62,341 nt of DNA, taken from contig WASQ01000076.1 of the NCBI GenBank assembly GCA_009712185.1, positions 58,632 through 120,972 on the forward strand, given 5' to 3'. The first letter of the stretch is position 1, and every line of letters starts with the position of its first letter. Origin of the DNA: Telmatospirillum sp. (lineage in GTDB: Bacteria; Pseudomonadota; Alphaproteobacteria; Rhodospirillales; Magnetospirillaceae). The notes under the pieces were generated by a model that saw only the letters and a list, made by a program, of their open reading frames with translations, made no database searches and was not told the origin of the DNA. Positions 11,512-32,664 of the stretch are shown piece after piece. Position numbers and translations under genes: made by a program.

Positions 11512-11856
11512 CTAGTGAACGTCCTTTTCTGTTGCTGCGCAAGAGCTTTCCGGATCGGATGCCTCGCCGAACAACAATCGATAGGTCTCGGGATCGTAAT
11601 ATCGCATGAGTTGCTTCACGAAATCCGCCGGACGGATGTGCAAAGCCGCCGCCCAGCGTTCGTAACGATCAGGAGGGATTCGTCCGCGGCCGACCTCCAG
11701 TTGCGAGATGAAGGTGTAATATTCGACACCAACCCGCTCCGCCAGTTGGCGCTGCGTCAGACAGGCCTTCTCCCGCAATTCCTTCAGCCATTTGCCGGCG
11801 TCCTTACGCAACTTCTGGACGTCATGTCCGGCACTTTGTTGGGGATGTGCATACAT
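11512..11856 (-). CDS. XRE-family helix-turn-helix regulator
   Basis: A 114-residue DNA-binding protein. The HTH spans about residues 22-75 (LTQRQLAERVGVEYYTFISQLEVGRG), which is a clear Cro/CI-type fold. It is followed by a short helical tail that mentions no ligand domain. An extension upstream of ATG 11856 is possible but has no family resemblance. A near-perfect TGTACA-N8-TGTACA palindrome lies about 70 bp upstream (11925-11944), consistent with autoregulation. A related site overlaps the promoter of the surface-protein gene at 18469. It is divergent from the type I secretion operon and most likely the local regulator. Confidence 0.82.
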   Translation of the reverse strand: MYAHPQQSAGHDVQKLRKDAGKWLKELREKACLTQRQLAERVGVEYYTFISQLEVGRGRIPPDRYERWAAALHIRPADFVKQLMRYYDPETYRLLFGEASDPESSCAATEKDVH

Positions 11857-12429
11857 CGTTCGCAATCCACGACATAAAAAAGAGGGGACCAAATTATCCA
11901 CAGGATAGGAGAAAACCCGAGGCATGTACAGAAGTTACTGTACAAGATTTTTCTCCCCTTTTCCGAAGGTCCGAGGGCCGGACGCGACCTGCGGCCGCCG
12001 ATGGCGGAGGATGGGTCGCCGGACAATTTTCTTCCCCCTTCCGGTGCGGAGAGGGGATGCCGGACCTCCGGCTTCACCTCCATTTGCTTCGATGATCGCA
12101 AGACCATGAAACCGCTCACGTTGTTCAGGGGGGATCTGCACGGGGCGGGTCGGGGCAACGATTCGCTTGCGTCCAAAAGGGGTAATCGCTAGTGTCCGAT
12201 CCGCTTTGTCATCTCGGTTATGGCGGGGTCCGCAGGAAAAATGCGGGAGTGACCGGGGCGGGGGACCGCCTGAAGGTCCGGGACTTCTAATCGGTTCAAG
12301 GGTGGACGTGCCGGTGCGACGCAATCCGTGGCAGAAGGGCCTCAGGGCCGACAACAGTAACTTCCTTACCGGATCCGGACTTTCCATCGCCTTAATGGGG
12401 GCGTCCGCCGCGTGGGAGGTATCCGGGCA
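11857..12429. other. Divergent intergenic region, regulator/secretion operon
   Basis: This 573-bp stretch separates the XRE gene and the secretion ATPase. Besides the palindrome at 11925-11944 it holds a GGAGGT ribosome-binding site at 12414-12419. I see no convincing gene: the overlapping short frames translate to Arg/Pro/Ser-rich shadow sequence. Promoters for both directions must lie here, but I cannot place them confidently. Confidence 0.5.
11925..11944. promoter_or_regulatory. Candidate operator TGTACAGAAGTTACTGTACA
   Basis: This is two TGTACA half-sites separated by 8 bp, within an almost perfect 20-bp inverted repeat (the two central positions of GAAGTTAC do not pair). It lies upstream of the XRE gene. 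A relative, TGTAAAGTCACTGTACA, occurs at 18389-18405 before the surface-protein gene; both are preceded by GC-A. Binding by the adjacent XRE protein is inferred from position. Confidence 0.55.
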
Positions 12430-14133
12430 ATGGTGAAACGGAAGCAGAAGTCGGAACTGGCGCTGGCGCTCGGAAAATGTCGGGGTGCTCTCCTTGGCGC
12501 CGGCACATTCAGTTGCTTCATTAACCTTCTGGCGCTGATTTCCCCCCTCTATATGTTGCAGATCTATGACCGGGTGCTGGGCAGCCGCAACGAGACCACG
12601 CTCGTCGTGCTCACGGTCATCTGCGCCAGCCTGCTCGCCGTCAGTTCCGCGCTTGAGGTGATGCGCTCACGCGTGCTGGTCCGCATCGGCGGCCGCATGG
12701 ACGAATTGCTGAACGGGCGGATTTTCAATGCCGTCTTCGATCTGGCGATCCGGCATCCCGGGGCAGCCTCAACCCAGGCATTACGTGATCTTGACACCAT
12801 TCGTGAATTCCTGACCGGCAACGGCCTGTTCGCCTTCTTCGACGCCCCCTGGATGCCGATCTATTTCGCCACCGTCTTCATGATCCATCCGATGCTCGGC
12901 TGGATCGCCGTGGCGGGCGGCGTCCTGATTTTCGGTCTGGCCATCGTCAATGAAGTGGCGACGCGTCATACCCTGGGAGATGCCAACACAAACAATATTG
13001 CCGCCTCCCGCTTTGCCGACGGCAGTCTCCGCAATGTCGAGGCCTTGCAGGCGATGGGCATGGTGGATGGCGTCTATGGCCGCTGGAAGGACAAGCGCGC
13101 CCGGGTGCTGCAGTTGCAGGCCGCCGCCAGCGACCGCGCCGGCGTGATCCAGTCTCTGTCGCGATTCGTCCGGGTTTCGCTGCAAATGGCGATCCTTGGC
13201 GGCGGCGCCTATTATGTTTTGCAAAACGAGATCACCGCCGGCCTGATGATCGCCGCCTCCATCGTCATGGGCCGCGCCCTGGCGCCGATCGAGATGGCAG
13301 TGGCGACGTGGCGGCAGTTTCTGATGGCGAGATCCTCCTATGAACGTCTGACGGAGCTGTTGCAGGTCATTCCCGCCAACGAGGAGTTCATGCCGTTGCC
13401 GGCGCCGCAGGGCAATTTGTCGGCGGAAAGCATCGTCGTTGTTCCTCCCGGTGCGGCGGCCCCGGGGTTGAGGGGCGTGTCCTTCCGGGTCGCCGCCGGC
13501 GATATTGTCGGGGTCATCGGTCCCAGCGCTGCCGGAAAATCGACCCTGGCGCGGGTCATGGTTGGCGTCTGGCCGGTGCAGTCCGGGACGGTGCGCTTTG
13601 ATGGTGCGGATCTCAAGACCTGGGACCGGTCCCGCCTCGGGCCCTCGATCGGCTATCTGCCGCAGGACGTGGAACTGTTCGAAGGCACCGTCGCAGAAAA
13701 CATCGCCCGTTTCGGCGAAGTCGACGCCGATGCCGTGGTGGCTGCCGCGCAGGCTGCCGGCGTCCATCAACTGATCCTGGGGTTGCCGAAAGGCTATGAC
13801 ACGCAAATCGGTCCCGGCGGTCAGGCATTGTCCGGAGGCCAACGCCAGCGTGTCGGCCTGGCCCGCGCGCTGTACCGGACCCCGCCGGTGCTGGTGCTCG
13901 ACGAGCCCAATTCAAATCTCGATACCGAGGGCGAGGAGGCTTTGGCACGCGCCATGGCGCAGTTCAAGGAGAGGCGCCAGACCGCCCTCGTGATCACCCA
14001 CCGCCTCAACCTTCTCGCCGGGGTCGACTATATCATGGTGATGAACCAGGGGATGATCGAGCAATTCGGTACCCGGGACCAGATCCTGGCAAAATTCGCC
14101 CGGCCGACGCCGGTCGTCGCGACGGGGGCGTGA
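12430..14133 (+). CDS. Type I secretion permease/ATPase (PrtD/HasD-like)
   Basis: A 567-residue half-transporter that powers export of an unfolded substrate across the inner membrane. The N-terminal membrane domain (about residues 15-300) includes SPLYMLQIYDRVLGSRNETT, typical of the PrtD/RsaD branch, with no C39 peptidase-like domain. The ATPase domain has Walker A GPSAAGKST (364-372), signature LSGGQRQRVGLARAL (about 467) and Walker B VLVLDEPNSNLD. ATG 12430 is preceded by GGAGGT at good spacing; a GTG at 12412 overlaps that site and is less likely. It is the first gene of the exporter operon, with the membrane-fusion gene starting 2 bp after its stop. The closest functional analogy is SapD/RsaD/PrtD. 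Confidence 0.95.
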   Translation: MVKRKQKSELALALGKCRGALLGAGTFSCFINLLALISPLYMLQIYDRVLGSRNETTLVVLTVICASLLAVSSALEVMRSRVLVRIGGRMDELLNGRIFNAVFDLAIRHPGAASTQALRDLDTIREFLTGNGLFAFFDAPWMPIYFATVFMIHPMLGWIAVAGGVLIFGLAIVNEVATRHTLGDANTNNIAASRFADGSLRNVEALQAMGMVDGVYGRWKDKRARVLQLQAAASDRAGVIQSLSRFVRVSLQMAILGGGAYYVLQNEITAGLMIAASIVMGRALAPIEMAVATWRQFLMARSSYERLTELLQVIPANEEFMPLPAPQGNLSAESIVVVPPGAAAPGLRGVSFRVAAGDIVGVIGPSAAGKSTLARVMVGVWPVQSGTVRFDGADLKTWDRSRLGPSIGYLPQDVELFEGTVAENIARFGEVDADAVVAAAQAAGVHQLILGLPKGYDTQIGPGGQALSGGQRQRVGLARALYRTPPVLVLDEPNSNLDTEGEEALARAMAQFKERRQTALVITHRLNLLAGVDYIMVMNQGMIEQFGTRDQILAKFARPTPVVATGA

Positions 14134-14135
14134 TC

Positions 14136-15536
14136 ATGCCCTTGCCAGCGATTTTTCATAAAAAACTCGAATCCGCGACGCTCGATATCCTGCACAAAGG
14201 AACGGCGCTGGTCACCCGTCTGGACAGCAATCTGACGCCGGTGGACAAACTGGGCGACGTGCGCCGACCGCTCTGGATCGGGATTATGATCATCCTGGTG
14301 ACGTTCGGCGGCGTCGGCCTGTGGGCCGTGACCGCGGAACTCGACAGTGCCGCCCAGGCGCCGGGAGTCGTTATCGCGGAGGGCAACCGGCGGATCATCC
14401 AACATCTCGAAGGCGGCATCGTTAAAGAGATCCTGGTGACCGAAGGGCAGGAGGTTAAGGCCGGAGACGTCCTGGTTCGCCTCGACGACGTCCGGGTAAG
14501 GGCGCAGCTTGGCATCGTCCAGGCCGATCTCGACCTGCAAAGGGCGGTGGAGGCCCGCCTGCTGGCCGAGCGCGATGGCCTCAAGGAGCCTCAGTTTCCG
14601 AAGACCCTGCTGGACCGCATGCAGAAGGACGTCACGGTCGCCAACATCGTCAACGGACAGCGGAATCTGTTTTTCGCACGGCGCGCGACGATGAAGGGTC
14701 AACACGAGATTCTGGATCAGCGCATCAACCAGAACAATGAGCAAATCGCCGCCATCCGGTCGGAGGCCGAGGCAAAAGGCAAGCAGATCGCCCTGATCAA
14801 CGAAGAACTGTCGGATTTGTCCGGCCTGCTCGACGCCGGTTATGTGACCAAGACCCGGGTTCTCGCCCTGCGCCGCGAAGCGGCCCGTCTGCAAGGCGAA
14901 TTGGGGGAGCATCAGGCCACCATCGCCCGCACCCAGCAGGCGATCGGCGAGGACCGGCTGCAGATCCTCCAGATCGAAAAGCAGCGTCAGGAGGAAGTGG
15001 CAAAGGAACTGCGCGACGTCCAGGCCCGGATCACCGAGGATTCGGAACGTCAGGTGGCCGCCGAGGACCAGACGCGCCGTGTCGACATCACATCTCCGGT
15101 GGACGGAGCCGTGCTCAATCTCATGATTCACACGGTCGGTGGTGTCATCACACCCGGTTCTCCGATCATGGAAATCGTACCGTCGGACGAAAAGCTGGTG
15201 GTCGAGGCACAGGTCAATCCGCTCGATATCAACACCGTCCACGCGGGCCAGGACGTCGCGCTGCACGTCAGCGCCGCCGGCGCCCGGTTGATTCCGGTGA
15301 TTTACGGCACCGTGGAAGGGGTTTCCGCCGACCGCGTCACCGATCAGAAAACGGGCCATGCCTATTACAAGGCGAAGATCACCGTTTCGAAGGACCAGCT
15401 TTCCCGTCTGGGCGATGTGAAACTGCAAAGCGGCATGGCGGTGGAGGCGATGATCTCTCGCGGTTCGCAGTCGGCCCTGCATTACGCGGTGAAGCCACTG
15501 CTGGAAAGCCTGACCCGGTCGTTCCGCGAAGAATGA
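14136..15536 (+). CDS. Type I secretion membrane-fusion protein (HlyD family)
   Basis: A 466-residue periplasmic adaptor. It has a short cytoplasmic N-terminus, a single TM (about residues 46-68), and a lipoyl/barrel-sandwich half with EGNRRIIQHLEGGIVKEILV. A long alpha-helical hairpin (about 135-310, rich in Gln/Glu/Arg) follows, then the second half-lipoyl segment (ITSPVDGAVLNLMIHTVGG) and the conserved HlyD tail with GMAVEAMI. It bridges the ATPase at 12430 and the outer-membrane channel at 15796. A GTG at 14130 overlaps the upstream stop and could extend it by two residues. Length is typical for PrtE/HasE-type adaptors. Confidence 0.95.
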   Translation: MPLPAIFHKKLESATLDILHKGTALVTRLDSNLTPVDKLGDVRRPLWIGIMIILVTFGGVGLWAVTAELDSAAQAPGVVIAEGNRRIIQHLEGGIVKEILVTEGQEVKAGDVLVRLDDVRVRAQLGIVQADLDLQRAVEARLLAERDGLKEPQFPKTLLDRMQKDVTVANIVNGQRNLFFARRATMKGQHEILDQRINQNNEQIAAIRSEAEAKGKQIALINEELSDLSGLLDAGYVTKTRVLALRREAARLQGELGEHQATIARTQQAIGEDRLQILQIEKQRQEEVAKELRDVQARITEDSERQVAAEDQTRRVDITSPVDGAVLNLMIHTVGGVITPGSPIMEIVPSDEKLVVEAQVNPLDINTVHAGQDVALHVSAAGARLIPVIYGTVEGVSADRVTDQKTGHAYYKAKITVSKDQLSRLGDVKLQSGMAVEAMISRGSQSALHYAVKPLLESLTRSFREE

Positions 15537-15795
15537 CCGGCCGTCCGGGTGACGATATAACGAGATGGGGCATGGGCGTGGGGGCTTGCGAAAAGAACCT
15601 GCGGCGGGGCCTGTTTTCCCCCGGCCCAGAGTCGCCGGCCCGGAGGCGCCGGCCAGGGGAGGCCGGGAAAGGAGCCGCGATCCGGGCCTGGCCGTACGGT
15701 CCGGCAACGGAGCGTCCATCCTTCCGGCGTCACGCTCTGTCCCGGTGCGATCGACCGTTCTTCTTCCAGCCGACTTCCTTTAAGGTGTTCCCGTC

Positions 15796-17232
15796 ATGAC
15801 CCGCCTTCGTCCGTGCCTCTTGTCCACCGTGGCCTTCCTGTTGTTCGCCGGCTGCGGCGCGGCACGGGCGCAGACACTGGAGGAGGTCCTGGTGACCACC
15901 TACACCAGCAATCCGCAGATCGAGGCCGATCGCGCCCGCCAGCGGGCGTCCGACGACGACGTCGCCCGCGCTCTCGGCGGCTGGCGCCCGGTGGCTACCT
16001 TGCAGGTGCAGCACGGCCGGGGGCACGATATCTACCAGTACAAACAGACCAAGCGGAACATCAATCCCCTTTATCCCGCCAATCCCTCCTATTCCGTCCA
16101 TGAATGGCGGACGCCCGACAATCTTCTGCTGCAGATCCAGCAGGCCATCTATGACGGCGGCCGGACCAGCGCCGATCTCCGCCATTCTCAACTGGCGGTA
16201 GAGGCTGGGCTGGCGACCATGGTGTCGGTGGAACAGCAGGTCTTGGGCGGTGCCGTGCAGGCCTATTACGACCTCTACCGCGACCAGGAGATCGCGGAAC
16301 TGGCCCGGCAGAACGTGGCCTGGTTGCAGGAGCAGGCCAATGCCGTGCATGCCCGCTATCAGGTGAAGGACGTCACACAGACCGACGTCGCCCAGGCGGA
16401 GGCTCGACTTGCCAAGGGGCTTTCCGACCAGACCACGGCGGAAGGAACCCTGGAGGTAACGCGGTCGGCGTTCCAGGCCGCGACGGGGATTGTTCCGGGT
16501 GTCCTTCCGTCGCCGCCACCCGCGCCGGTGGCCCTGCTGCCAACCTCGAAGGACGAGGCGATGGCCCTGGCCGAGACCAATCCCGACATGAGGGCCGCGC
16601 AGCTCACCGCCCAGGTGGCGGAGGCCGATGTCGACTATATGGCCAGCGGCTTGATGCCCACCCTGTCCCTCCAGGCCACGGCGCGGCGAATGAACGACAG
16701 CGATCAGGCCTATCTTGGCACCACGGACCATCAGGTTCTTCTGTCGCTCAGCATTCCCCTGTACGAGGGGGGGGTTTCCGCGGCGCGCACCCGCGGGGCG
16801 AAGCAAACCGCCGGGCAGAAGCGACTGGAAGCCGATTACACCCGGCGCAAGGTGACCGATCAGGTCAACCGTGCCTGGCAGCAGTTGCAATCGGCGCGCG
16901 CCAATATCCGTTCGCTGACCGAGCAGGTGCGTGCGGCCGACGTGGCGCGGACCAGCATCCGCGCCGAAATGCGGGTGGGCACGCGCACGGTTCTCGATCA
17001 GCTCAACACCGAGCAGGAACTGATGGACGCGAAGATTTCCCTCTTGCGCGCCCGCCATGACGAGACGGTGGCGAGTTATGGCGTCCTGATTTCAGTCGGG
17101 CATCTGACGGCCAGCGCGTTAGGGTTGCCCGTGGAGATCTACGATCCCGCGATCCACTATGAGAAAGTCCGCAATCAGTGGATTGGAACGGGGATCGACG
17201 AGGATTATGGAAAGGACCGGAAGCCGGAGTGA
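15796..17232 (+). CDS. TolC-family outer membrane efflux/secretion channel
   Basis: A 478-residue protein with a signal peptide (cleavage near ARAQ, residue 26). Two TolC repeats follow: the first has NPQIEADRARQRASDDDV and LLQIQQAIYDGGRT; the second has NPDMRAAQLTAQVAEADV and LSLSIPLYEGGVSAARTR. LYDGG/LYEGG turns are family hallmarks. It completes the three-part type I exporter. The 259-bp gap from the adaptor gene shows no gene, so it may have its own promoter or remain in the operon. The C-terminal tail after the second repeat is short and charged. Confidence 0.94.
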   Translation: MTRLRPCLLSTVAFLLFAGCGAARAQTLEEVLVTTYTSNPQIEADRARQRASDDDVARALGGWRPVATLQVQHGRGHDIYQYKQTKRNINPLYPANPSYSVHEWRTPDNLLLQIQQAIYDGGRTSADLRHSQLAVEAGLATMVSVEQQVLGGAVQAYYDLYRDQEIAELARQNVAWLQEQANAVHARYQVKDVTQTDVAQAEARLAKGLSDQTTAEGTLEVTRSAFQAATGIVPGVLPSPPPAPVALLPTSKDEAMALAETNPDMRAAQLTAQVAEADVDYMASGLMPTLSLQATARRMNDSDQAYLGTTDHQVLLSLSIPLYEGGVSAARTRGAKQTAGQKRLEADYTRRKVTDQVNRAWQQLQSARANIRSLTEQVRAADVARTSIRAEMRVGTRTVLDQLNTEQELMDAKISLLRARHDETVASYGVLISVGHLTASALGLPVEIYDPAIHYEKVRNQWIGTGIDEDYGKDRKPE

Positions 17233-17376
17233 CCATGGCACCGCGCTGCGGGACGCTTTTCGGCTGAACAGGTGCCGAAGGCGTTTGATGCGCGATCGAG
17301 GACCTGTCGGCCGAAGCGATCAGGACGAGGCGCGGCGGACGCGTCCATTGACGGCCGGACGCGGAGGACCATCATC

Positions 17377-17988
17377 GTGAGCAAACCGGACCTCTATCAA
17401 ATTCTCGGCGTTCCCAGAAACGCGACCCGCGCGGCCGTCAAGGCCGCCTACCGGGCCAAAGTGAAGCGCGTTCATCCTGATGTCGGCGGGAAGCCCGAAG
17501 ACTTTCGCCTGTTGCTGCTGGCGCGGGATATTCTGTCGGACGCGGACCGGCGGCGCCGCTATGACGAGTCCGGCATTTTGCCGACGGAGACGATCGAGAG
17601 GAACTTCGACTCGAAGGTCTACGTCGCTGCCGGAGACGTCCTGCTGGCCGTGTTGCCGCAGATCAAAAGTCCGAATTACGAGAATGTCCTGATTCTGATG
17701 CGTGAATGGGTCGCCTCGCATCTGGTCGAATTGGAGAGGCGCGTCTCTGACCTGGACTTGTCCGTGGAAAAAATGACGGTTGTCGAAGCCAGGATTCAGA
17801 CGGACCGAAAAGACAATCTGCTTCGTTCCCTCGTTGCCGGCCGCCGGGGCGATTTGCGCGATCAACGCGAGTTGGCGATGCAGGAGCACCAGCTTTACGA
17901 ATCAGTTCAGGATTTTCTCGACGATTATCACTATTTCACGCAGATCGAGAATGTTCTGATTTCGACCGACATCTGGTCCAGCCGCTAA
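17377..17988 (+). CDS. J-domain (DnaJ-like) co-chaperone
   Basis: A 203-residue protein. The N-terminal J-domain (residues 3 to about 65) has LYQILGVPRNATRAAVKAAY, the HPD triad (33-35, in VHPDVGG) and a clear helix IV (DADRRRRYDESG). No Gly/Phe or zinc-finger region follows. The remaining about 135 residues form an unfamiliar helical domain. GTG 17377 was chosen because GGAGG lies at 17363-17367; open frame upstream is Arg-rich filler. It lies 144 bp after the TolC-family gene and before the large secreted-protein gene. A J-protein can direct a DnaK to a substrate, so a role in keeping the export substrate unfolded is plausible but unproven. Confidence 0.88.
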   Translation: MSKPDLYQILGVPRNATRAAVKAAYRAKVKRVHPDVGGKPEDFRLLLLARDILSDADRRRRYDESGILPTETIERNFDSKVYVAAGDVLLAVLPQIKSPNYENVLILMREWVASHLVELERRVSDLDLSVEKMTVVEARIQTDRKDNLLRSLVAGRRGDLRDQRELAMQEHQLYESVQDFLDDYHYFTQIENVLISTDIWSSR

Positions 17989-17996
17989 TACCAGCC

Positions 17997-18134
17997 TGTG
18001 CTGATCGGACCCGATCAGCACAGCCCGCAGTTGCCGGGCGGGTTTCTCCGAAACCCTTGGCTTCGTTCGCTATCCACTCGCGGGCCCTCATCGGGCCAGC
18101 CAACCGGCGACGAGCAATCCTCAGCGCCGGTTGG
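17997..18134. other. Structured intergenic region with four hairpins
   Basis: Four inverted repeats follow the J-domain gene. They are a perfect 12-bp stem with a 2-nt loop (17997-18022, TGTGCTGATCGG/CCGATCAGCACA); GGGTTTC-TCC-GAAACCC (18040-18056); GGCCC-TCATC-GGGCC (about 18083-18097); and CCAACCGGCG...CGCCGGTTGG (18100-18134). None has a strong U-tract, so simple termination is not the only reading. A structured RNA or mobile repeat is possible. The rest, to 18363, shows no gene. Confidence 0.5.
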
Positions 18135-18363
18135 TATAGGCCTTTCCACCCGGTGAAGCTGGGCATTCCGGTGGCCGGCGGGGTGCCTATGCCGGTCGCG
18201 AGAGGATCCCTTCCCTGATCTTCGGAAGACCGGCGGCTATCCCGTTCGGCCAGATCGCAAAGATCATCCCGGATATGAGCTGGTTTCTTCAATTGACTGA
18301 AGAAAAATGTCTTTTTCCCGACGGGTTGGCGAAAATTCCGGGAGCCATCCCGCGAGTTTCGCG

Positions 18364-18405
18364 TTGACTTTCTTCCCAAATCGATGCATGTAAAGTCACT
18401 GTACA
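18364..18405 (+). promoter_or_regulatory. Promoter and candidate operator of the surface-protein gene
   Basis: TTGACT (18364-18369) is a good -35 box. A TGTAAA at 18389-18394 would be the -10 with a long 19-bp spacer. That TGTAAA is also the first half of TGTAAAGTCACTGTACA (18389-18405), a degenerate relative of the palindrome upstream of the XRE gene. Binding there would occlude RNA polymerase. It leaves an untranslated leader of about 65 nt before the start codon. Confidence 0.5.
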
Positions 18406-18468
18406 GGAGAGGTGGGGGACTCGCCCCTGCCCTTCGCCTGTCTTAAACCCATCGTCAGGAGTTTTCCG

Positions 18469-21400
18469 ATGGCAACCACTCTCGCCGCCGAAACAACTTT
18501 TGTTACCAATATTTATCAAAACGTTCTGCTTGAACCCGCCTCTCTCGTGACGTCCTCGTCGGCCCAGATCACCTCTTGGGCCACCCTGATCGTCTCGGGC
18601 GTGCTGACCGAACAGCAGGTTCTGACCGACATCACCACCACGGGCACGACCGGCGCCTGGGTCACCAATTATGTGGTGCCGCTGGTGCAGCTCTACGAGG
18701 GCTTCTACCACTCCACGCCCGATATCGCCGGCCTGCAGAACTGGGTTGCTTATTTCTCCTCGACCGCGCCGCTGTCCGCGACCGGTGCCCAGCCGTCCAA
18801 TTATGCGTCGGTGCTCTCCAGCATCGCCCAGGTGTTCGCCAGCAACACCCAGTTCACCGCGACCTACGGCTCCGCCCCGACGGCGCAGGCGTTCGTCACC
18901 GCGCTCTATCAGAACATCCTCGGCCGCGCCCCCGATGCAGCAGGCCTCGCCGGGTATGTCGCCTATCTGACCAGCACCGCCGGCGCGAGCCCGTCTGTTG
19001 CTTCGATGGCCAGCCTGGCCCTCGCCTTCGTGAATTCGGCCGAGGCCAAGGCCGACGCCACCGCGCCGATTCAGGCGTGGCTGCAGGGCGGTGTGAACGG
19101 CAGCTATGCCTCCACCATTCCTGGGATTACCGGTACCCCGGCGGTGACGAATGTTGCGCTGACCACCGGTCAGGACACCGTGTCCCCGGCTGGCAACACG
19201 GCGATCTTCGGCACCTACAATGGCACCGCTGCCACGCAGGCGTCGACGTTCAATGCGGGTGACAGCATCAATGCGACCGGCCTCAACAACACGTTGAACC
19301 TGACCGACATCGGCACGGGCGGCAGCGCCGATTTCAGCAATGTTGCCGGCGTCACCGTTTCGGGCGTGCAGACCCTCAATGTGATTTCCAGTGAGGCTGT
19401 TACGGCCAACACGGCCTCCAGCGTCAATGGTTATTCAGGCCTGACTGCTCTGACGGTCAAGGCTGTCGGCGGGGCCAGCATCACGGCGGCGTCCACCACG
19501 GCCGTGTCCGTGACCGACTCCGCGCTTGGCGCGAGCCATACCGATTCCGTTCTGGGCGGCGGCAATGTCAGCATCACCGCGAGCGGCGCTGCGAACGCAT
19601 CGGCCATCACCGTCGGCAGCGCGACCGCCGCTCCGACCGGCACCGTGACGATCGTTGAAAACGCCTCGTTGTCGACGGCCGCCGGTGCCGCGACCCTGGG
19701 CGCCATCACTGTGACGGGCGGGACCACGGTTTCCATTACCGAAAACCTCGCCAATTCGGATGTGACTGCGGGTAACCTGCTGACCGCGGGTGCGGTCTCG
19801 GTGACCGGCACGGCGACCACCACCAATGTCGTCGTCGCGCAGACCGCGGCGGCCACTGCCACTGCCGGTGTGACGGAAACGGCGGCGATCACTGTCGGTG
19901 CCGGCGGTCTGACCGCGGGCCAGTCCGTGACGATCGGCGGCCTGACCTATACCTCGACAGGTGTGACGACCCAGGCGCAGTTGGAAACCGCGTTTGCCAA
20001 TTTGGCGGCTGGTGCGACCACGGGTGGCGGCGCTGGCACGGGAAGCTATACGGGCACCTTGACCGGGTTCAGCACCGGTGCTGCGGCCGCCCATGTCATC
20101 ACCGCGACTTCGGCGACGAAATTCACCAATGTCACGGATCTGGCCTATACCGACGCCAATGGCGCCCTGACCAGCGTCGTTGAAACGCAGGGCTCTGCCG
20201 GTACGGGCGGGATTGCCAATGGCGCGGTGACGATCACCGACGTCAACGCCGGTAGCACGACGAAGGCGGGAACGATCGCGTCGGTCAGCCTGACCAACTA
20301 TGCGAGCGGTTCTTCGATTTCGTCGAACGCCCTGTCGACCCTGACCATTGCCGGTACCGGAGCGGGCACGCTGTCGCTGACCGATTCGCTGACGACGCCG
20401 ACGATCACCGCGCTGACGCTGAACCTGAACGCCGCGACCGTGAATGCGATCAGCGACGTCAATGCCGAACTGAAGACGTTGAACGTGGTGACCGGCGGCA
20501 CGGCGGCTTCGACCGTCGGCACCTTCACCGACGCCAACCTGACCACCCTCAATGTCTCGGGTAGCCAGGCGTTGACCTTCACCAACGAGCCGGCCAGCCT
20601 CACGGCCATCAACGTCAGCGGCGCGGCGGGCTTGACCATCTCGTTGGATCCGACGGCGACGACCTTCACCTCGACCAGCACCGGGTCGGATGTGATCACG
20701 ATCACCAAGGCGGCGACCAAGACCATCACGGGCAACGGAACGGCCGGCGAGGAACTCGTCTGGAACGCCGACGCCGCTCCGGCCGCGACGGCCTATCTGG
20801 GCACCGTGACCGGTTTCAAGGTGTTCGGGCTCGGTGGCTCTGTGGCGACGACCGGCAACGACATCTTCGATATGAGCAAGATCACCGGATTCACCGCCCT
20901 TGATGTCCAGGCGAATGCTCATACCAACACCATCCAGTTCACCAACGTCACCGCGGCCACGCCTCTGTCGATCGACGGCGCCTTCGCCGGTACGCTGGTG
21001 TATCAGACGGCGGATACCGCCGGTGCCACCGACAGCCTCGCGCTGACCCTCGGTGCGGCGGCGAACAAGGCCGGCTTCACTGTCGCTGCTCTGACTGTTG
21101 AAGACAGCCAGTTGAACGGCATTGGTAACCTGACCATTACCAGCAATGCCTCCAACACCAGTGCCAACAACATCATTACGACCTTGCAGGATGCGTCTCT
21201 GACGAACCTGACCCTGGCCGGCACCGGTGGCCTGACGATCTCCAACGGCCTGACCACCAATGCCGCCAGCCTGTCGATCAACGCGATCAGCAGCGGTAAG
21301 GGCGGTCTGGTCTTCTCGACGGGCATCACCGATACCCACCTGACCTCCCTGACCCTGACCGGTACCGACGCCATCAATCTCGGTACGATCACGGACGGAA

Positions 21401-22050
21401 CGTCGGGCATCACGGTCAACGGTTCGGCGGCGAATGCCGGTGTTACCCTGACCCTGGCGGGTGCGACCTCGTCGGGGCATACCGACAGCATCACGCTCGG
21501 CAACGGCACCAATGTCGTCACCGACTCCGCCGCCCTGGCCGGCTCGACCGTCAACATCACCGTTGGAACGGGTGCCAACACCATTACCCTCGGCGCGGCG
21601 GCGACCAACAATGTGACCTTTGGTGCCCACAGCACCACGGCGACCATTGACACTGTCAATGTGGCGGCCTCCACCTCCACCTCTGTTGTTCCGACGGCGA
21701 TCCTGACTGGCCTGAACGCTAACGGCGTCGACACCATCCACTTCCTGGGTGATGGCGGCAACGGTGCGACGGGCGCGATCGTTGCGTTCACGACGGCGCA
21801 GATCAACACTTACGGCAACAATCCGACCGATCTGGCCGGCGCGATCGCCGGAGTGCTGTCCGCGACTGGCGGTAACCTGGCGCAGCACGCCATTGCCGAG
21901 TTCCAGTTCCAGGGCAATACCTACTTCGTGGAACATGCCGGTGCGGGGCACACCTTCGCCGCTGGCGACACCGTGGTCGAACTGACCGGTCTGAACACCT
22001 TCACGACCGCCACCAGTGCGACGGCGGGCGTTCTGCATCTGCTTGGCTAA
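18469..22050 (+). CDS. Large DUF4214 / S-layer-like secreted protein
   Basis: A 1193-residue, Cys-free, strongly acidic surface protein with about eleven Lys and a single Arg. The N-terminal about 200 residues are helical with DUF4214-like repeats (LYEGFYHSTPDIAGLQNWV; LYQNILGRAPDAAGLAGYV). The rest is Thr/Ser/Ala/Gly/Asn-rich beta-repeat sequence, consistent with a beta-helix or stacked-sheet surface protein. There is no Sec signal peptide. The C-terminus is hydrophobic (VLHLLG), as in type I substrates. Canonical RTX nonapeptides are not obvious, although GTGANTITLG-type strands occur. ATG 18469 has AGGAG 7 bp upstream. Placement after a complete type I exporter, and followed by SapC-family genes, makes it the likely exported S-layer protein or adhesin. 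A strong terminator follows. Confidence 0.88.
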   Translation: MATTLAAETTFVTNIYQNVLLEPASLVTSSSAQITSWATLIVSGVLTEQQVLTDITTTGTTGAWVTNYVVPLVQLYEGFYHSTPDIAGLQNWVAYFSSTAPLSATGAQPSNYASVLSSIAQVFASNTQFTATYGSAPTAQAFVTALYQNILGRAPDAAGLAGYVAYLTSTAGASPSVASMASLALAFVNSAEAKADATAPIQAWLQGGVNGSYASTIPGITGTPAVTNVALTTGQDTVSPAGNTAIFGTYNGTAATQASTFNAGDSINATGLNNTLNLTDIGTGGSADFSNVAGVTVSGVQTLNVISSEAVTANTASSVNGYSGLTALTVKAVGGASITAASTTAVSVTDSALGASHTDSVLGGGNVSITASGAANASAITVGSATAAPTGTVTIVENASLSTAAGAATLGAITVTGGTTVSITENLANSDVTAGNLLTAGAVSVTGTATTTNVVVAQTAAATATAGVTETAAITVGAGGLTAGQSVTIGGLTYTSTGVTTQAQLETAFANLAAGATTGGGAGTGSYTGTLTGFSTGAAAAHVITATSATKFTNVTDLAYTDANGALTSVVETQGSAGTGGIANGAVTITDVNAGSTTKAGTIASVSLTNYASGSSISSNALSTLTIAGTGAGTLSLTDSLTTPTITALTLNLNAATVNAISDVNAELKTLNVVTGGTAASTVGTFTDANLTTLNVSGSQALTFTNEPASLTAINVSGAAGLTISLDPTATTFTSTSTGSDVITITKAATKTITGNGTAGEELVWNADAAPAATAYLGTVTGFKVFGLGGSVATTGNDIFDMSKITGFTALDVQANAHTNTIQFTNVTAATPLSIDGAFAGTLVYQTADTAGATDSLALTLGAAANKAGFTVAALTVEDSQLNGIGNLTITSNASNTSANNIITTLQDASLTNLTLAGTGGLTISNGLTTNAASLSINAISSGKGGLVFSTGITDTHLTSLTLTGTDAINLGTITDGTSGITVNGSAANAGVTLTLAGATSSGHTDSITLGNGTNVVTDSAALAGSTVNITVGTGANTITLGAAATNNVTFGAHSTTATIDTVNVAASTSTSVVPTAILTGLNANGVDTIHFLGDGGNGATGAIVAFTTAQINTYGNNPTDLAGAIAGVLSATGGNLAQHAIAEFQFQGNTYFVEHAGAGHTFAAGDTVVELTGLNTFTTATSATAGVLHLLG

Positions 22051-22093
22051 TATCAACGTCCGGGCGTAAATGCCCGGGGTGATAGCGGGAGGA

Positions 22094-22123
22094 CCCCCGC
22101 CGGGAAACCGGCGGGGGTTTTCT
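22094..22123 (+). terminator. Rho-independent terminator after the surface-protein gene
   Basis: A 10-bp perfect GC stem (CCCCCGCCGG/CCGGCGGGGG) with a GAAA tetraloop is followed by TTTTCTC. A smaller hairpin (CCGGGC...GCCCGG, 22060-22077) precedes it. It is a textbook intrinsic terminator and isolates the highly expressed gene from the SapC gene downstream. Confidence 0.9.
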
Positions 22124-22327
22124 CAACAAAAATAGTAACGTATCCATCAGTGGGCGGATCAGGTCATATCCGTTTCGCCGCGAAGCCTGCGGCCGTGTTT
22201 TCCGGTGTCATCCCGGGGGCGTGGACATGACCGCGGCCGCTCCTCTATCGACGGGGTGTTAAATGTGCGGCCGAAGGTCCGCATGGGTTCACCGCGTCTT
22301 TGATGTCAGGAATAAGGAGCCGTTCGC

Positions 22328-23119
22328 ATGTCCAATGTCGTCGTCGTTTCACATGACGCCTTTGGCGCCAGAAAGTGGCTGCGATTCTCCAATTTTGCTT
22401 TTGCTGCCCGCCAATCTGTCGTTCCTGTTCTGGCGACTGAAATGGCGAACGCGGCAATGGTGTTCCCTTTAGCCTTTGCTCCGCGGGGAGATACGTTCGA
22501 ATTGGTTGCCGTTCTGGGATTGGCCCCGGAACAGAATCTCTTCGTTGCGCCGGACGGCCGCTGGCTGGCCGGTTATGTCCCGTCTGTCTTGCGGAGTCAT
22601 CCCTTTCAAATCGCGACCGCGCCAGATGGGCAGAAAGTCCTGTGCGTCGACGTCGACAGCGGTCTGGTTGTCGACGGACACTCAGGAATGGGCGAGCGTT
22701 TTTTTGAGGAAAATGGCTCTCTGAGTGCGGCGTTGCAGTCCGTGGTTGATTTTCTTGCTCAGCGGGAAAACGGGATCGCGATTACCGCGGCGGCATGTGC
22801 GGCCCTACAGGAACAGGGGCTGATCGTACCTTGGAATATTACGATTCAGCGTGGCGATGCGCAGCAAAAGATCGAAGGACTTTTCAGAATCGATGAAACG
22901 ATCCTGGAATCTTTGCCAGATCAATCATTTGTATTGCTTAGGAAAAGTGTCGCTCTTCCATTGGCGTATTCACAAATGCTTTCGATGCACCATCTTTCAC
23001 TTCTTGGGAAGTTGGGGCAGGCAAGGGAGCAGGAAGCCGCCAGAAGCCAGGCGGCCCACCAAATGCCTCTTTCAGGCGACATCGATCTGTCCATATTGAC
23101 CAACAGGAAAAATCGGTAA
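22328..23119 (+). CDS. SapC family protein (first copy)
   Basis: A 263-residue protein of the SapC family. It shows the usual succession: an N-terminal FAFAARQSVVPVLATEMANA segment, LVAVLGLAPEQNLFVAPDGRWLAGYVPSVLR (in parts: LGLAPEQNLFV, GRWLAGYVPSVLR, PFQIA) and a Val-rich VDVDSGLVV strand. SapC genes accompany the S-layer secretion genes sapDEF in Campylobacter; their biochemical role is unknown. AAGGAG at 22314-22319 gives good spacing to ATG 22328. It follows the terminator of the surface-protein gene by about 200 bp, so it has its own transcript, possibly with the methyltransferase gene 162 bp on. Its codon use is somewhat less GC-rich than that of the glycan genes. Confidence 0.85.
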   Translation: MSNVVVVSHDAFGARKWLRFSNFAFAARQSVVPVLATEMANAAMVFPLAFAPRGDTFELVAVLGLAPEQNLFVAPDGRWLAGYVPSVLRSHPFQIATAPDGQKVLCVDVDSGLVVDGHSGMGERFFEENGSLSAALQSVVDFLAQRENGIAITAAACAALQEQGLIVPWNITIQRGDAQQKIEGLFRIDETILESLPDQSFVLLRKSVALPLAYSQMLSMHHLSLLGKLGQAREQEAARSQAAHQMPLSGDIDLSILTNRKNR

Positions 23120-23281
23120 GGCCAACGCCGGGCCAGGAGAGCCTGCGAACCTAACCGGGGAACAGGAGGCCAGGCTGCCTCGATGTTCGGGCAGATCAAC
23201 ATGCACCGTTATTATATTTCTATGGGAAATTCTCGGGTGGCACAGGTATTATCTGTCGAAATCTCATGACAGGGGGGGTAT

Positions 23282-24817
23282 ATGTCCGATTGGACGTCTG
23301 GCTATGTCGCCGATATCGGCTATACATTCGGGTATTACGGGGAACTGAATCCGCTCCGCGTGAGACTGGCGTTTCTTAATGCCGGTATTGTCTGTCCCGA
23401 TATCGCTGTGGCCTGTGAGCTGGGATTTGGACAGGGACTGAGTGCCAATATTCATGCCGCGGCATCATCCATTGCCTGGCATGGGACCGATTTCAATCCG
23501 GCCCAGGCCGCCTTTGCCCGCGAGATTGCACAGGCGTCCGGCGCCGCAGCGAATCTTTACGATGAATCTTTTGCCGAATTCTGCGCCCGCGAAGATCTTC
23601 CAGATTTTGATTATATCGGTCTGCACGGTATCTGGAGTTGGATTTCGCTCGATAATCAGAAAACTATTATCGAATTCCTTCGCCGCAAGCTGAAAGTCGG
23701 CGGTATCCTTTACATCAGTTATAACACCCTACCCGGGTGGGCTTCGATGGTGCCAATGCGCCATCTGTTGACCCAACATGCGGAGGTTATGGCGGCTCCT
23801 GGTCGCGGCACCGTTTCACGCATTGATGCGGCGCTGGATTTTGCCGGTAAATTTCTGGCGACCAATCCGGCTTACGGCCGCGCCAATCCTCAAATCGTTG
23901 AGCGGATGAAAGGGGTGGCGACGCAGAACAGGCATTATCTCGCTCACGAATATTTCAATCGCGACTGGACGCCGATCCATTTTGCCGAGATGGCGGAACA
24001 ACTGGCGCCGGCGAAACTGACATATGCCTGTTCCGCCCATTATCTGAGCCATGTTGACGGGATCAATCTCACCGCCGAGCAACAGGCGTTTCTGCTCGAT
24101 ATCCCTGACGCCATGTTTCGGGAAAGTGTGCGAGATTTCATTATCAATCAGCAATTCCGGCGCGACTATTGGGTGAAGGGCGCCCGCAGATTGTCAAGGC
24201 TGGAGCAGGCGGAAGGACTTCGCAACCAGCGGGTCGTGTTGGCGGTGCCGCGTACCAACGTTTCTCTCAAAACGGTCGGGGCATTGGGCGAAGCGACCTT
24301 GCAGGACAGCATTTACGCTCCCATCATCGATATCCTTGCTGATTACAAACCAAAGGCCGTTGGCGAGGTGGAACGCCTTCTTCATAGCAAGGGGATCGCG
24401 TTTTCCCAGATGGTTCAGGCATTGCTTGTGCTGACCGGCAACGGTGACGTTGTGGCCGTCCAGGAGGACGCTGCCATCGGCAAAGCCAAAGGGCGCACGA
24501 CAAAACTCAACCATTATCTGATGCAGAAGGCGCGGGGAAGCGGAGATATCAGCTTTCTCGCCAGTCCGGTCAGTGGTGGTGGCGTTGCCGTCGGGCGGTT
24601 CCAGCAACTTTTCCTGTCGGCTCTATTCCAGGGGCGAAAGACTCCCTCCGAGTGGGCGGAGTTCGTGTGGCAGGTTCTTTCCGCGCAGGGGCAGTCCCTT
24701 GCCAGGGATGGCAAAACGTTGAGCAGCGCTGAGGAAAACCTTGCCGAATTGGTTTCGCAGGCCCGTCAGTTCGCCGAAACACAGTTGCCGGTTTTGAGAG
24801 CCCTGGGTGTGGGATGA
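23282..24817 (+). CDS. Methyltransferase with PF10119 regulatory domain
   Basis: A 511-residue protein. The N-terminal Rossmann-type SAM-binding domain has motif I at ELGFGQG (46-52), an acidic strand end at HGTDFNPAQAAFA, and FDYIGLHGIWSWIS. The middle (about 210-300) matches the methyltransferase regulatory domain pattern (FAEMAEQLAPAKLTYACSAHYL; DFIINQQFRRDYWVKG). A helical C-terminal domain follows. Rickettsia lysine methyltransferases that modify the surface protein OmpB have this architecture, to my knowledge. Lying between two SapC genes and behind the S-layer-like gene, it is a candidate for modifying the secreted surface protein on Lys residues. The substrate is inferred. A run of Gs before ATG 23282 acts as the ribosome site. 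Confidence 0.82.
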   Translation: MSDWTSGYVADIGYTFGYYGELNPLRVRLAFLNAGIVCPDIAVACELGFGQGLSANIHAAASSIAWHGTDFNPAQAAFAREIAQASGAAANLYDESFAEFCAREDLPDFDYIGLHGIWSWISLDNQKTIIEFLRRKLKVGGILYISYNTLPGWASMVPMRHLLTQHAEVMAAPGRGTVSRIDAALDFAGKFLATNPAYGRANPQIVERMKGVATQNRHYLAHEYFNRDWTPIHFAEMAEQLAPAKLTYACSAHYLSHVDGINLTAEQQAFLLDIPDAMFRESVRDFIINQQFRRDYWVKGARRLSRLEQAEGLRNQRVVLAVPRTNVSLKTVGALGEATLQDSIYAPIIDILADYKPKAVGEVERLLHSKGIAFSQMVQALLVLTGNGDVVAVQEDAAIGKAKGRTTKLNHYLMQKARGSGDISFLASPVSGGGVAVGRFQQLFLSALFQGRKTPSEWAEFVWQVLSAQGQSLARDGKTLSSAEENLAELVSQARQFAETQLPVLRALGVG

Positions 24818-25017
24818 CCCGATCCGCGGCGATCGGGAAAGGGCGATCCTGAGGCGCCTGAATATCCTCCGTTTTGCGGATGGGCGTTGCCTGCATCGCA
24901 GTTTTCCTTGCCATTTGCCGCCTTGTACAGCAACATTGCAACATCGTCTTTACCCCTTGGCGCAGCCGGCCATTTTCGGCTAAACCATCGTCGTCGTCAT
25001 TATCAGGGTTTTGTCCC

Positions 25018-25734
25018 ATGGCTTTCATTCCCGTTACCCGTGAGCAGCACAGTGGAAAATTCCTGCTCCCGCTTTCGTCCTTCGCGCATGCCGCCAAAAG
25101 CGCCGCCGTCGAGGTGGTCCTGGGCGAATTGGCGCAGGTGACCGCCTGCTATCCGATGTTCTTCATCCGGCAAGGGGAGGGGTACCATCTGGTCGCGCTG
25201 TTGGGCATGAAGCAGGGCGAAAATCTGTATGTGGATCGCGCCGGCCGCTGGACCGGCCTTTATGTTCCGGCCATGTTGCGGGCTTATCCTTTCACCATGG
25301 TCCCCCAGAACGGGCAACTCTCCGTTTTCTATGACGAGGCGTCCGGACTGCTGTCGGACAAGGAGGGAGAGCCCCTGTTCGGGACCGGAGAGGGGGAACC
25401 GAACGGTCCCCTGGCCCGCGCGATCAAACTGCTGACGGAACTGAACCTGGACGGCGAACGAACCGCGAAACTGGCGAAGCAGTTGGCCGACTACGGCCTT
25501 CTGAAGGCCGCGACCCTGAAAATGGATCGGAGCGGCCAGCCCGGTGAGGCGTTGGACGGCATTTTCGCCGTCGACGAGGCTGCCCTGGGTGGCCTGGGGG
25601 ATGAGGCGTTCCTCGGCCTGCGCCGCAGCGGCGCACTGATCCTGGCCCATGCCCAGATGCTGTCGCTGGGACAGCTTGGCCGTCTTCAGGCGGAGGCGAA
25701 CATCCGCGACCGGGACAACGCCCGGCTTTCATGA
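25018..25734 (+). CDS. SapC family protein (second copy)
   Basis: A 238-residue SapC-family protein, paralogous to the one at 22328. It shares the pattern VVLGELAQVTACYPMFF, LLGMKQGENLYVDRAGRWTGLYVPAMLRAYPF (in parts: LLGMKQGENLYV, GRWTGLYVPAMLR) and a SLGQLGRLQ helix near the end. The two copies are clearly diverged. ATG 25018 was chosen because family similarity begins there. Its stop overlaps the start of the next gene by 4 bp (ATGA), so the two are co-translated. Function is unknown beyond association with S-layer loci. Confidence 0.85.
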   Translation: MAFIPVTREQHSGKFLLPLSSFAHAAKSAAVEVVLGELAQVTACYPMFFIRQGEGYHLVALLGMKQGENLYVDRAGRWTGLYVPAMLRAYPFTMVPQNGQLSVFYDEASGLLSDKEGEPLFGTGEGEPNGPLARAIKLLTELNLDGERTAKLAKQLADYGLLKAATLKMDRSGQPGEALDGIFAVDEAALGGLGDEAFLGLRRSGALILAHAQMLSLGQLGRLQAEANIRDRDNARLS

Positions 25735-26411
25735 CAGCCGCGGAAAACGGAACGGATCCGGTTCTCGTCGTCAAAACCATCGATTTTGGGTATGACGACG
25801 ACGCCGACCGTCTGTTTCTCGATTGCACCGACCATGTGTCGGTGCGGCGTCTGTGGTTGACGCGGCGCCTGACCCGGCGCCTTCTCGCGGCTTTCGCCGG
25901 TGCGCTGGAACGGTCAAGCCCGGCGGTGCGCAAGGCGCCGGCCGATGCCCGCCAGGAAGTCATGGCGATGGAGCATCTGATGTCGCTGGCGGTCCAGCCT
26001 CCCGCCACTCCGCCAGTCTCGTCCACTCCACCGGTCTCTTCCGGTTCGTCGCTCTCGTCCGGTGCGCCAGTGTCTTCCGGCGCCGGCGAATCTCCGGGGG
26101 TCGGGCATCACGCGGGGGAGAACGCCGATCGGGCGGAGGGAGGGGCCGGGACGCTGTCGGCGGAACGTCGCGAGGCGGCGCTGGTGTCCCGGATCGATGT
26201 CGAGATCCATCCCGCCGAATTCCGCCTGCTGCTCCATTCCGCCGACCGGCCTTTGGCCTCGGTCGGGTTGAACCGGGGCGAGGTGCACAAGGTTCTGGCC
26301 GCGCTCGATCACTGGGCGCGGGTCGCGGAATGGGACATCGCCGCGGCCGCCGGGTGGCTGGACGGGGCGGAACGCGCGGCGGTCTCCGTTGTCGGCCGCA
26401 ACGCCTCGTGA
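25731..26411 (+). CDS. Hypothetical protein with Pro/Ser linker
   Basis: A 226-residue protein I do not recognise. It has a small N-terminal domain (residues 1 to about 90; FGYDDDADRLFLDCTD, basic helix WLTRRLTRRLLAAFAGALER), a low-complexity Pro/Ser/Gly linker (about 93-130) and a C-terminal domain (about 145-220; RIDVEIHPAEFRLLLHSADRPLA). No signal peptide or TM is evident. It starts inside the stop of the second SapC gene and is followed 13 bp later by the gene at 26425, so three genes form one operon. It may be a cytoplasmic partner of SapC. Confidence 0.6.
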   Translation: MTAAENGTDPVLVVKTIDFGYDDDADRLFLDCTDHVSVRRLWLTRRLTRRLLAAFAGALERSSPAVRKAPADARQEVMAMEHLMSLAVQPPATPPVSSTPPVSSGSSLSSGAPVSSGAGESPGVGHHAGENADRAEGGAGTLSAERREAALVSRIDVEIHPAEFRLLLHSADRPLASVGLNRGEVHKVLAALDHWARVAEWDIAAAAGWLDGAERAAVSVVGRNAS

Positions 26412-26424
26412 AGGAGGAGTGAAC

Positions 26425-26961
26425 ATGACCGGACATCCCGGGGTGGCCCCCCAGCATCTTCTGGCGTTCGGCGCCATCGTCCAGTGGTTCGCCCGCCACG
26501 AATATCTGATGCAGACGGCGATGGCCGGCATCACCGGGACCGATCTGTCCACCATCCTGGTGCTGACCGCCGGCCTGTCCTACACCGCGAAGCGCGACGC
26601 CCTGGCCAGTCTCACCCACACCACCGGCCTGCCGGAGCCGGTGGGCGAGGCCGTGCGGACCTATCTCGACGATCTCAACCGCCACAACGGCCTGCGCAAC
26701 GCGGTCGCCCATTCCATGTGGGTCCCCGGAAGCCGGCCCGATTCGATCAAGCCCATGCGCCTGATCGTGCGGGGCGGCATCGGCAAGCCGGTCGGCCATA
26801 TCGAGGACGAGCGGGACTATCTGGCGGAGGAGCTGTTGCAGGTCGCGACCGACGTGGCCGGAATCTATCAGCGCTTCGTCGAGTTCCTGCTGTCGTCGGG
26901 GCTGGTGCGCGAGGTCGCGGCCCAGACGCTGAAGTCCGATCATCCCCATCCGACGGCATAA
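26425..26961 (+). CDS. Hypothetical helical protein with RxxxxH (HEPN-like) motif
   Basis: A 178-residue all-helical protein. It contains NRHNGLRNAVAHSMW, where RNAVAH fits the Rx4H signature of HEPN-type RNases and of related four-helix proteins. I cannot assign a family. The ribosome site AAGGAGGAG (26411-26419) gives ideal spacing to ATG 26425 and fixes this start over an upstream one at 26389. It ends the SapC operon. Rx4H motifs also occur in non-catalytic helical proteins, so nuclease activity is speculative. No obvious antitoxin neighbour such as MNT is seen. Confidence 0.6.
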   Translation: MTGHPGVAPQHLLAFGAIVQWFARHEYLMQTAMAGITGTDLSTILVLTAGLSYTAKRDALASLTHTTGLPEPVGEAVRTYLDDLNRHNGLRNAVAHSMWVPGSRPDSIKPMRLIVRGGIGKPVGHIEDERDYLAEELLQVATDVAGIYQRFVEFLLSSGLVREVAAQTLKSDHPHPTA

Positions 26962-28662: not shown

Positions 28663-28663
28663 G

Positions 28664-32624: not shown

Positions 32625-32664
32625 TTCCCGCCGGCGATGAGCGGTGGTCATCGCCGGCGGGTGG

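Follow-up and report, generated by a model that had tools for sequence, protein, structure and literature searches.

A probable RsaA-type surface-layer locus of Telmatospirillum sp. with two SapC genes and a predicted PKMT-type methyltransferase

The sapDEF genes of Campylobacter fetus constitute a type I secretion system (T1SS). Formation of the surface layer (S-layer) of this species requires sapCDEF, as an excerpt of PMC4943207 states with reference to earlier work. In Caulobacter, the S-layer protein RsaA, which has its own exporter (RsaD, RsaE and RsaF), is bound to O-antigen (PMC13337285, excerpt), and an RsaA homologue lies beside PrtD, HlyD and TolC genes in the gammaproteobacterium Methylomicrobium album BG8 (PMC13274458, excerpt). 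The Rickettsia enzymes PKMT1 and PKMT2 methylate OmpB, and in Acinetobacter Tol 5 the adhesin AtaA is the substrate of KmtA (outer-membrane-protein lysine methyltransferase type A; PMC11784438, excerpt). According to the same source, only a few bacterial surface proteins are known to be methylated on several lysines, namely outer-membrane proteins of Rickettsia, the flagellin of Salmonella, and AtaA. OmpB is needed for the S-layer of R. parkeri (PMC13337285, excerpt), and a link between S-layer and methylation in Rickettsia is already in print (PMC9553169, excerpt). Here we describe a block of genes in a stretch of 62,341 nucleotides (hereafter referred to as the window) from Telmatospirillum sp. 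(assembly GCA_009712185.1, contig WASQ01000076.1, positions 58,632 to 120,972), which encodes a candidate RsaA-type S-layer protein, a type I exporter, two SapC-family proteins and a methyltransferase of the PF10119 family. The block probably (at roughly 0.6) builds an RsaA-type S-layer, the protein of which would be methylated by the PF10119 enzyme before type I export. The computed basis of this reading consists of the genes present, the resemblance of the large protein to RsaA in sequence and in predicted fold, the family of the exporter, the similarity of the methyltransferase to the protein lysine methyltransferase (PKMT) family, and a recurring linkage between S-layer-like protein, methyltransferase, SapC and exporter.

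The locus shares with the Caulobacter system a large, Lys- and Arg-poor, Cys-free protein with a helical N-terminal and a beta C-terminal part, a match in fold, an RsaA-type C-terminus, a PrtD-type exporter beside the protein and adjoining O-antigen genes. It differs from that system in that its protein has no repeats-in-toxin (RTX) motif and in that it adds the SapC pair and the PF10119 methyltransferase; the terms methyl and SapC are absent from PMC11026435, which deals with Caulobacter S-layer biogenesis. As in the C. fetus sap locus (sapA/sapB, sapCDEF; PMC4943207, excerpt), a SapC-family gene accompanies a type I exporter and an S-layer protein, but the window has two SapC genes, an RsaA-type protein, a methyltransferase and a J-protein, the two loci being compared here by description only. 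With the rickettsial PKMT1/PKMT2-OmpB system it has in common a PF10119-type enzyme dependent on S-adenosylmethionine (AdoMet), the target there being an S-layer protein (PMC13337285, excerpt); however, OmpB is an autotransporter and not a T1SS substrate (PMC9553169, excerpt), and the activity and target of the window enzyme are predicted. KmtA belongs to the same enzyme superfamily and likewise serves one dedicated surface protein, but that protein is a trimeric autotransporter, and neither the term S-layer nor the gene-neighbourhood terms tried occur in PMC11784438. The terms methyltransferase and SapC are absent from the M. album BG8 paper (PMC13274458), and no paper linking PF10119 enzymes to T1SS-exported S-layer proteins was found in excerpts of the open-licence literature. 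The genes of the block, and the gene paired with its regulator, are as follows.

9852..11483, minus strand: o9852, with a conserved N-terminal domain of ~130 aa and a variable remainder; one apparent transmembrane stretch (by eye), no Pfam family above the cut-off
11512..11925, minus strand: XRE-family DNA-binding regulator (HTH_3, PF01381, E = 5.5e-7)
12412..14133, plus strand: type I secretion ATP-binding cassette (ABC) protein, PrtD family (TIGR01842, 767 bits)
14130..15536, plus strand: type I secretion membrane-fusion protein (MFP; adaptor), HlyD family (TIGR01843, 398 bits)
15796..17232, plus strand: type I secretion outer-membrane protein, TolC family (TIGR01844, 257 bits)
17377..17988, plus strand: J-domain protein, with a GTG start at 17377 (PF00226, E = 8e-15; HPD motif in the translation)
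18469..22050, plus strand: putative RsaA-type S-layer protein, 1193 aa (DUF4214, E = 5e-18, residues 120-195)
22328..23119, plus strand: SapC1, SapC family (PF07277, E = 3e-57, 194.2 bits); no apparent signal peptide (by eye)
23282..24817, plus strand: PF10119 methyltransferase, METHYLTRANSFERASE (E = 1.2e-31, 109.7 bits)
25018..25734, plus strand: SapC2, SapC family, best start ATG 25018 (PF07277, 179.5 bits, E = 9e-53 for the longer open reading frame)

Profile searches thus found an XRE regulator, a full type I exporter, a J-protein, a DUF4214 protein, a SapC pair and a PF10119 methyltransferase at the places given to them by the initial annotation, which had been made from the sequence alone. 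The exporter passed all three curated T1SS subfamily cut-offs (TIGR01842, 510 bits; TIGR01843, 209 bits; TIGR01844, 225 bits); the cut-offs for PF10119 and PF07277 were 25.5 and 28.9 bits, respectively. Among the matches listed, 12412..14133 was the only PrtD match over the cut-off in the genome of the window (G000).

The large protein had been described initially as a Cys-free DUF4214 and beta-repeat protein of 1193 aa, and this description is confirmed by its composition (0 Cys, 11 Lys and 1 Arg, with a calculated isoelectric point of ~4), by its DUF4214 match and by the beta part of its model. A phmmer search of solved structures returned four sequences at E≤1, all of them Caulobacter RsaA (best E = 7.4e-16); the alignment comprised two long stretches with a high compositional bias and a third, of ~50 C-terminal residues, that was hardly biased. 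The C-terminal pattern [GSDN][NDT][TSA][YF], followed by D..[VIL]xLxG, which we propose as the predicted export signal, is common to RsaA, the window protein and 18 of the 23 methyltransferase-linked relatives defined below. The AlphaFold2 model, built on an alignment with 22 relatives (18 of the 23 linked proteins plus those of L118, L130, L139 and L140), had a predicted local distance difference test (pLDDT) score of 74.6 and a predicted template modelling (pTM) score of 0.63, with the N-terminal 210 residues helical and weak and the remainder beta. Foldseek comparison of this model with the PDB yielded six matches at E≤0.001, all of which were RsaA chains (E = 1.6e-23 to 5.5e-20; template modelling (TM) score by target 0.46-0.60), the next match having an E value of 0.83. 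Both its sequence and its predicted fold make the large protein a candidate S-layer protein of the RsaA type. The initial S-layer reading is supported and strengthened by the combination of this protein with a PrtD-type exporter and an O-antigen neighbourhood: the stretch most likely makes and exports a Caulobacter-like crystalline protein coat, and export of an S-layer by the locus is likely.

The only relatives of the methyltransferase in the PDB at E≤1 were Rickettsia PKMT2 (E = 4.5e-19) and PKMT1 (E = 1.6e-17). The motif E46-L47-G48-x-G50-x-G52, which we take to be AdoMet-binding from class I methyltransferases, and D70 were invariant in all seven aligned sequences. The PF10119 domain, the similarity to PKMT1/2 and the intact AdoMet motif place the protein among the predicted outer-membrane-protein lysine methyltransferases (PKMT/KmtA family). 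A scan of genomes with the seven-sequence alignment gave at least 564 loci, of which the best 80 were kept (L-labels denote fetched loci, these included). These 80 relatives, with 58-66% identity to the window enzyme, came mostly from Beta- and Gammaproteobacteria, with a few from Alphaproteobacteria (L091, L093, L111, L154 and L155), Chlorobi and deltaproteobacterial groups.

Proteins were considered S-layer-like on the basis of composition (at least 500 aa, Lys plus Arg <4.5%, residues A, T, G, S, V, N, L, I and D together >80%, and no more than two Cys), and were counted as directly upstream of a methyltransferase if they ended no more than 800 bp 5' on the same strand, in loci with 2 kb of upstream sequence. 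Such a protein lay directly upstream in 23 of 69 loci, with a gap of 33-249 bp in 21 of the 23, and directly downstream in 0 of 68; the background was two S-layer-like proteins across the 475 kb of sequence at a distance of more than 5 kb from a methyltransferase. Four more upstream pairs (L118, L130, L143 and L152) were obtained with a looser filter chosen after these loci had been seen, and in L139 and L140 a SapC gene lies between the S-layer-like protein and the methyltransferase, such that the order S-layer protein-SapC-methyltransferase of the window recurs, on the same strand, in L140. The linked loci, pooled, numbered 29. SapC was found within 3 kb of the methyltransferase in 13 of the 80 loci, and a T1SS ABC gene (profile score >200 bits) in 14; in L152 the order is S-layer-like protein-methyltransferase-SapC-ABC-MFP-outer-membrane factor. 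The methyltransferase, which the initial annotation had included in the S-layer block without accounting for it, is a partner that recurs, as the 23 of 69 close relatives with an S-layer-like gene directly upstream show. It is best read as an added PKMT-type partner of an RsaA-type S-layer locus. Tandem PrtD-like ABC genes were observed in six of the 80 methyltransferase loci (L077, L084, L089, L121, L137 and L146) and would suit a heterodimeric ABC exporter. An NpdA-type S-layer was considered for the beta- and gammaproteobacterial loci but discarded, since NpdA goes with type II secretion (PMC10765051, excerpt).

Linkage was also assessed from the side of SapC, which is carried by 85 of the 386 genomes surveyed from the class (Alphaproteobacteria) and by eight of 61 relatives, the window's own genome being included in both counts. 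A second set comprised 80 of 91 SapC-bearing genomes (G-labels), including that of the window; 11 fragmented genomes were left out, and G335, below the cut-off, was not counted. PF10119 was found in 29 of these 80 genomes (over the cut-off in 28) and PrtD over the cut-off in 40. The methyltransferase lay within 5 kb of SapC in six of the 28 genomes with both (window's own counted; 0.13 pairs expected, uniform placement in 4 Mb being assumed here and below) and within 5 kb of PrtD in four of 18 (0.09 expected). SapC lay within 10 kb of PrtD in five of the 40 genomes with both (0.36 expected) and within 20 kb in six (0.73 expected), again with the window's own counted. The order methyltransferase-SapC-ABC-MFP-XRE-o9852 is common to G269, G343 and G180, and an S-layer-like gene lies directly 5' of the methyltransferase in three (G269, G155 and G091) of the six second-set alphaproteobacterial methyltransferase loci compared. 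The linkage recurs, yet it is a minority pattern for SapC: the association of SapC with an S-layer exporter, taken from Campylobacter in the initial annotation, holds at the window, but most SapC genes are unlinked to PrtD.

The SapC1 model represents a confident predicted fold (pLDDT 90.8, pTM 0.83), for which no significant relative was found in the PDB (best E = 0.11, TM by query ≤0.16 in the best 50 matches listed) or among viral models (best E = 0.058). Its linkage, together with the need for sapCDEF in C. fetus S-layer formation, suggests a role for SapC as a cytosolic helper. TonB receptors and halogenases, as expected neighbours of SapC, were not borne out among the 25 of 81 neighbour families listed. 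At G028:C29:3821-4450 (L009, L024), a SapC domain lies within an open frame of 1464 aa, a possible fusion. Among 14 control genomes, Caulobacter vibrioides was the sole one with a SapC match and also the sole one with a PF10119 match, as a matter of genome-wide presence.

In the mechanism that we infer for the locus, the 1193-aa protein would lack a signal peptide, be synthesised in the cytoplasm and be kept export-competent there by SapC and, in the strain of the window, by the J-protein. Before export, the PF10119 enzyme would methylate lysines of the S-layer protein, as PKMT1/PKMT2 do on OmpB and KmtA on AtaA. The C-terminal RsaA-type signal would then be recognised and the protein would cross the PrtD/HlyD/TolC exporter in one step. 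Outside the cell, the helical end with DUF4214 would bind to O-antigen, an anchoring suggested by the attachment of RsaA in Caulobacter and by the adjoining O-antigen genes, and the lattice would be built from the beta part. The XRE gene and o9852 may regulate the locus.

A number of results speak against this mechanism. The 11 lysines in 1193 residues are few for a multiply methylated substrate, AtaA by contrast having 234 lysines in 3630 residues (PMC11784438, excerpt), and Lys and Arg counts did not clearly differ between linked and unlinked S-layer-like proteins, such that no lysine excess marks the substrate (the linked protein of L062 has 6 Lys and 16 Arg). Moreover, among the 65 loci that span at least 10 kb, 26 contain no direct upstream S-layer-like protein, no T1SS ABC gene (>200 bits) and no SapC, although three of these 26 do encode an S-layer-like protein at another place. 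The scarcity of lysines and the unlinked loci would be expected if the locus exported an S-layer but the methyltransferase acted on a porin, the exporter, SapC, or a flagellar or adhesin protein, and were linked to the other genes merely as a surface function; rickettsial PKMTs also act on OmpA, Sca1 and a porin (PMC11784438, excerpt). The strict position of the methyltransferase, with S-layer-like genes directly upstream on the same strand, mostly at a short distance, and never directly downstream, argues against such another target, which we consider rather unlikely. The predicted methylation of the S-layer protein itself by the PF10119 enzyme is plausible, with about even odds. The genome data also weigh against the mechanism: the four other genomes of the genus lack SapC, and with it the complete gene set; G180, G269 and G343 are of one genus, so the six genomes with a methyltransferase-SapC pair represent four genera and the four with a methyltransferase-PrtD pair two; and SapC as a strict component of S-layer exporters was not supported, the 77 open reading frames beside SapC in the 30 best-scoring alphaproteobacterial loci showing no dominant neighbour family among 25 of 81 families listed.

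The resemblance to RsaA has its own limits. TM by query was just 0.38-0.42, with a root-mean-square deviation of at least 9 Å, the confidence of the model is moderate and predicted models may lean towards known folds; in addition, five of the 23 methyltransferase-linked S-layer-like proteins lack the strict C-terminal pattern. The window protein contains neither GGxGxD nor GxGxD and has no PF00353 match. At least one GGxGxD is present in all 23 linked relatives, and PF00353 matches 15 of the 23 proteins of the model alignment, the window's not among them; two truncated relatives from the same family, Magnetospirillaceae (L071 and L073), likewise lack GGxGxD. Given this absence, calcium-driven folding as in RsaA is doubtful for the window protein. 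The absence of the RTX motif would also suit a T1SS-secreted adhesin or matrix protein of biofilms that is not crystalline and forms no S-layer, as would the further DUF4214 proteins on six other contigs of G000 (C30, C39, C89, C111, C130 and C137; 18 matches including the window's own) and the fact that the protein is known here from sequence and a model, from which the lattice is deduced. Such a protein is an unlikely alternative, however, as RsaA was the only PDB fold match at E≤0.001, the RsaA-type C-terminus is present, O-antigen genes flank both sides, and Lys, Arg and Cys are as scarce as in the S-layer-like relatives.

The composition of the genes bears on their origin. G+C content at third codon positions was 0.564 for SapC1, 0.62 for the methyltransferase and 0.59 for the XRE gene, versus 0.81 for the S-layer protein, 0.78-0.81 for the exporter and 0.77 for SapC2. 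Methyltransferases with ~65% identity come from several classes and phyla (the alphaproteobacterial L091, L093 and L111 included), whereas those of the second-set alphaproteobacterial loci reach 49%. Both observations would fit a chance neighbourhood, in which a Caulobacter-like exporter and its substrate received an unrelated SapC1-methyltransferase pair by horizontal transfer, but distant genomes link the same families (G269, G343 and G180, of one genus, and L152), such that transfer would have joined parts already belonging together, and we consider a chance association very unlikely. For an RsaA-type locus with a methyltransferase partner, the same composition suggests that a resident S-layer locus with SapC2 likely received the SapC1-methyltransferase pair, an argument drawn from composition alone. 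Among the fetched loci, the nearest relatives of SapC1 were the SapC proteins of two betaproteobacterial methyltransferase loci, L152 and L082 (44-45%), and SapC1 was probably acquired together with the methyltransferase; the nearest relative of SapC2 was that of L023, of the same family (57%), and SapC2 is probably of the resident lineage. A beta- or gammaproteobacterial donor of the methyltransferase was rejected, as the alphaproteobacterial L091, L093 and L111 also reach 64-65%; with ~65% methyltransferases in several classes, Alphaproteobacteria included, the donor is not assignable.

An enzyme of this kind beside a coat protein suggests that chemical marking of coat proteins may be wider than thought: S-layer-like protein and PKMT-class methyltransferase are neighbours in some two dozen further genomes, cultured environmental bacteria among them, such as Rhodoblastus acidophilus DSM 137 (L111), Limnohabitans radicicola (L106) and Noviherbaspirillum denitrificans (L152). 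We tentatively suggest, with somewhat less than even confidence, that PF10119 includes widespread dedicated S-layer lysine methyltransferases of free-living proteobacteria, which would act on RsaA-type proteins while these are still in the cytoplasm, ahead of type I secretion, and that SapC, a family named after C. fetus, has the narrower role of an S-layer-specific cytosolic partner with a fold as yet unsolved. Methylation of OmpB is known as a means of immune evasion in Rickettsia; on this view it would be one instance of an older device for S-layer tuning, which offers a possible reason for the action of rickettsial methyltransferases on an S-layer protein.

The XRE gene and o9852 form a putative regulatory unit. 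Among the 80 genomes surveyed, the o9852 N-terminal domain was present in 16, in 10 of which it lay within 25 kb of SapC or PrtD, and an XRE relative stood beside it on the same strand in 18 of 20 places; XRE copies with 70-79% identity occur in five genomes of the same family. We propose, on this sequence evidence, that the two constitute a conserved two-gene unit, which may regulate the locus. Pfam and PDB searches gave no glycosyltransferase assignment for 9852-11483, and that candidate function was dropped. The J-protein lies outside the recurring core: a search of 288 genomes of the class recovered its C-terminal part from just one, that of the window itself, and among the fetched loci relatives of the whole protein were limited to L023 (47%) and L111 (32%). 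It may have an accessory chaperone role. The proposal that the six families form a single conserved block was thus rejected on the co-occurrence in class genomes, SapC also being within 20 kb of PrtD in only the six of 40 genomes given above. The initial limits, 11512-26961, enclose the named genes, but the functional block extends beyond them, to o9852 and to the O-antigen genes on both sides. The remaining genes of the block and its flanks are as follows.

7217..9260, minus strand: genes for an NAD-dependent, fcl-like epimerase and a GDP-mannose 4,6-dehydratase (PF01370, PF16363), probable O-antigen sugar supply
11935-12387, minus strand: open reading frame of 150 aa between the XRE and ABC genes, possibly spurious; without a Pfam family
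25731..26411, plus strand: small protein, no Pfam family at E≤0.1
26425..26961, plus strand: small protein, no Pfam family at E≤0.1 (scanned from 26389)
27169..40879: probable O-antigen synthesis and export genes (ManC-type guanylyltransferase/isomerase, phosphomannomutase, ABC-2 permease, ATPase with Wzt_C, glycosyltransferases and nucleotide-sugar genes)

The sugar and transport genes on the two sides of the block are best read, from their predicted products, as an O-antigen synthesis and export cluster. Relatives of 25731..26411 either follow SapC or precede the ABC gene of the exporter (43% identity in L023 and 25-39% in L015, L016, L063 and L067), and 26425..26961 has a 53% identical relative at the same position in L023, which thus contains both small proteins as well as the J-protein. 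Elsewhere in the window, a TonB-dependent receptor plug protein is encoded near the left end (1568-4174, plus strand), and a cobalamin riboswitch (61970-62222, minus strand) was the sole Rfam match over the threshold.

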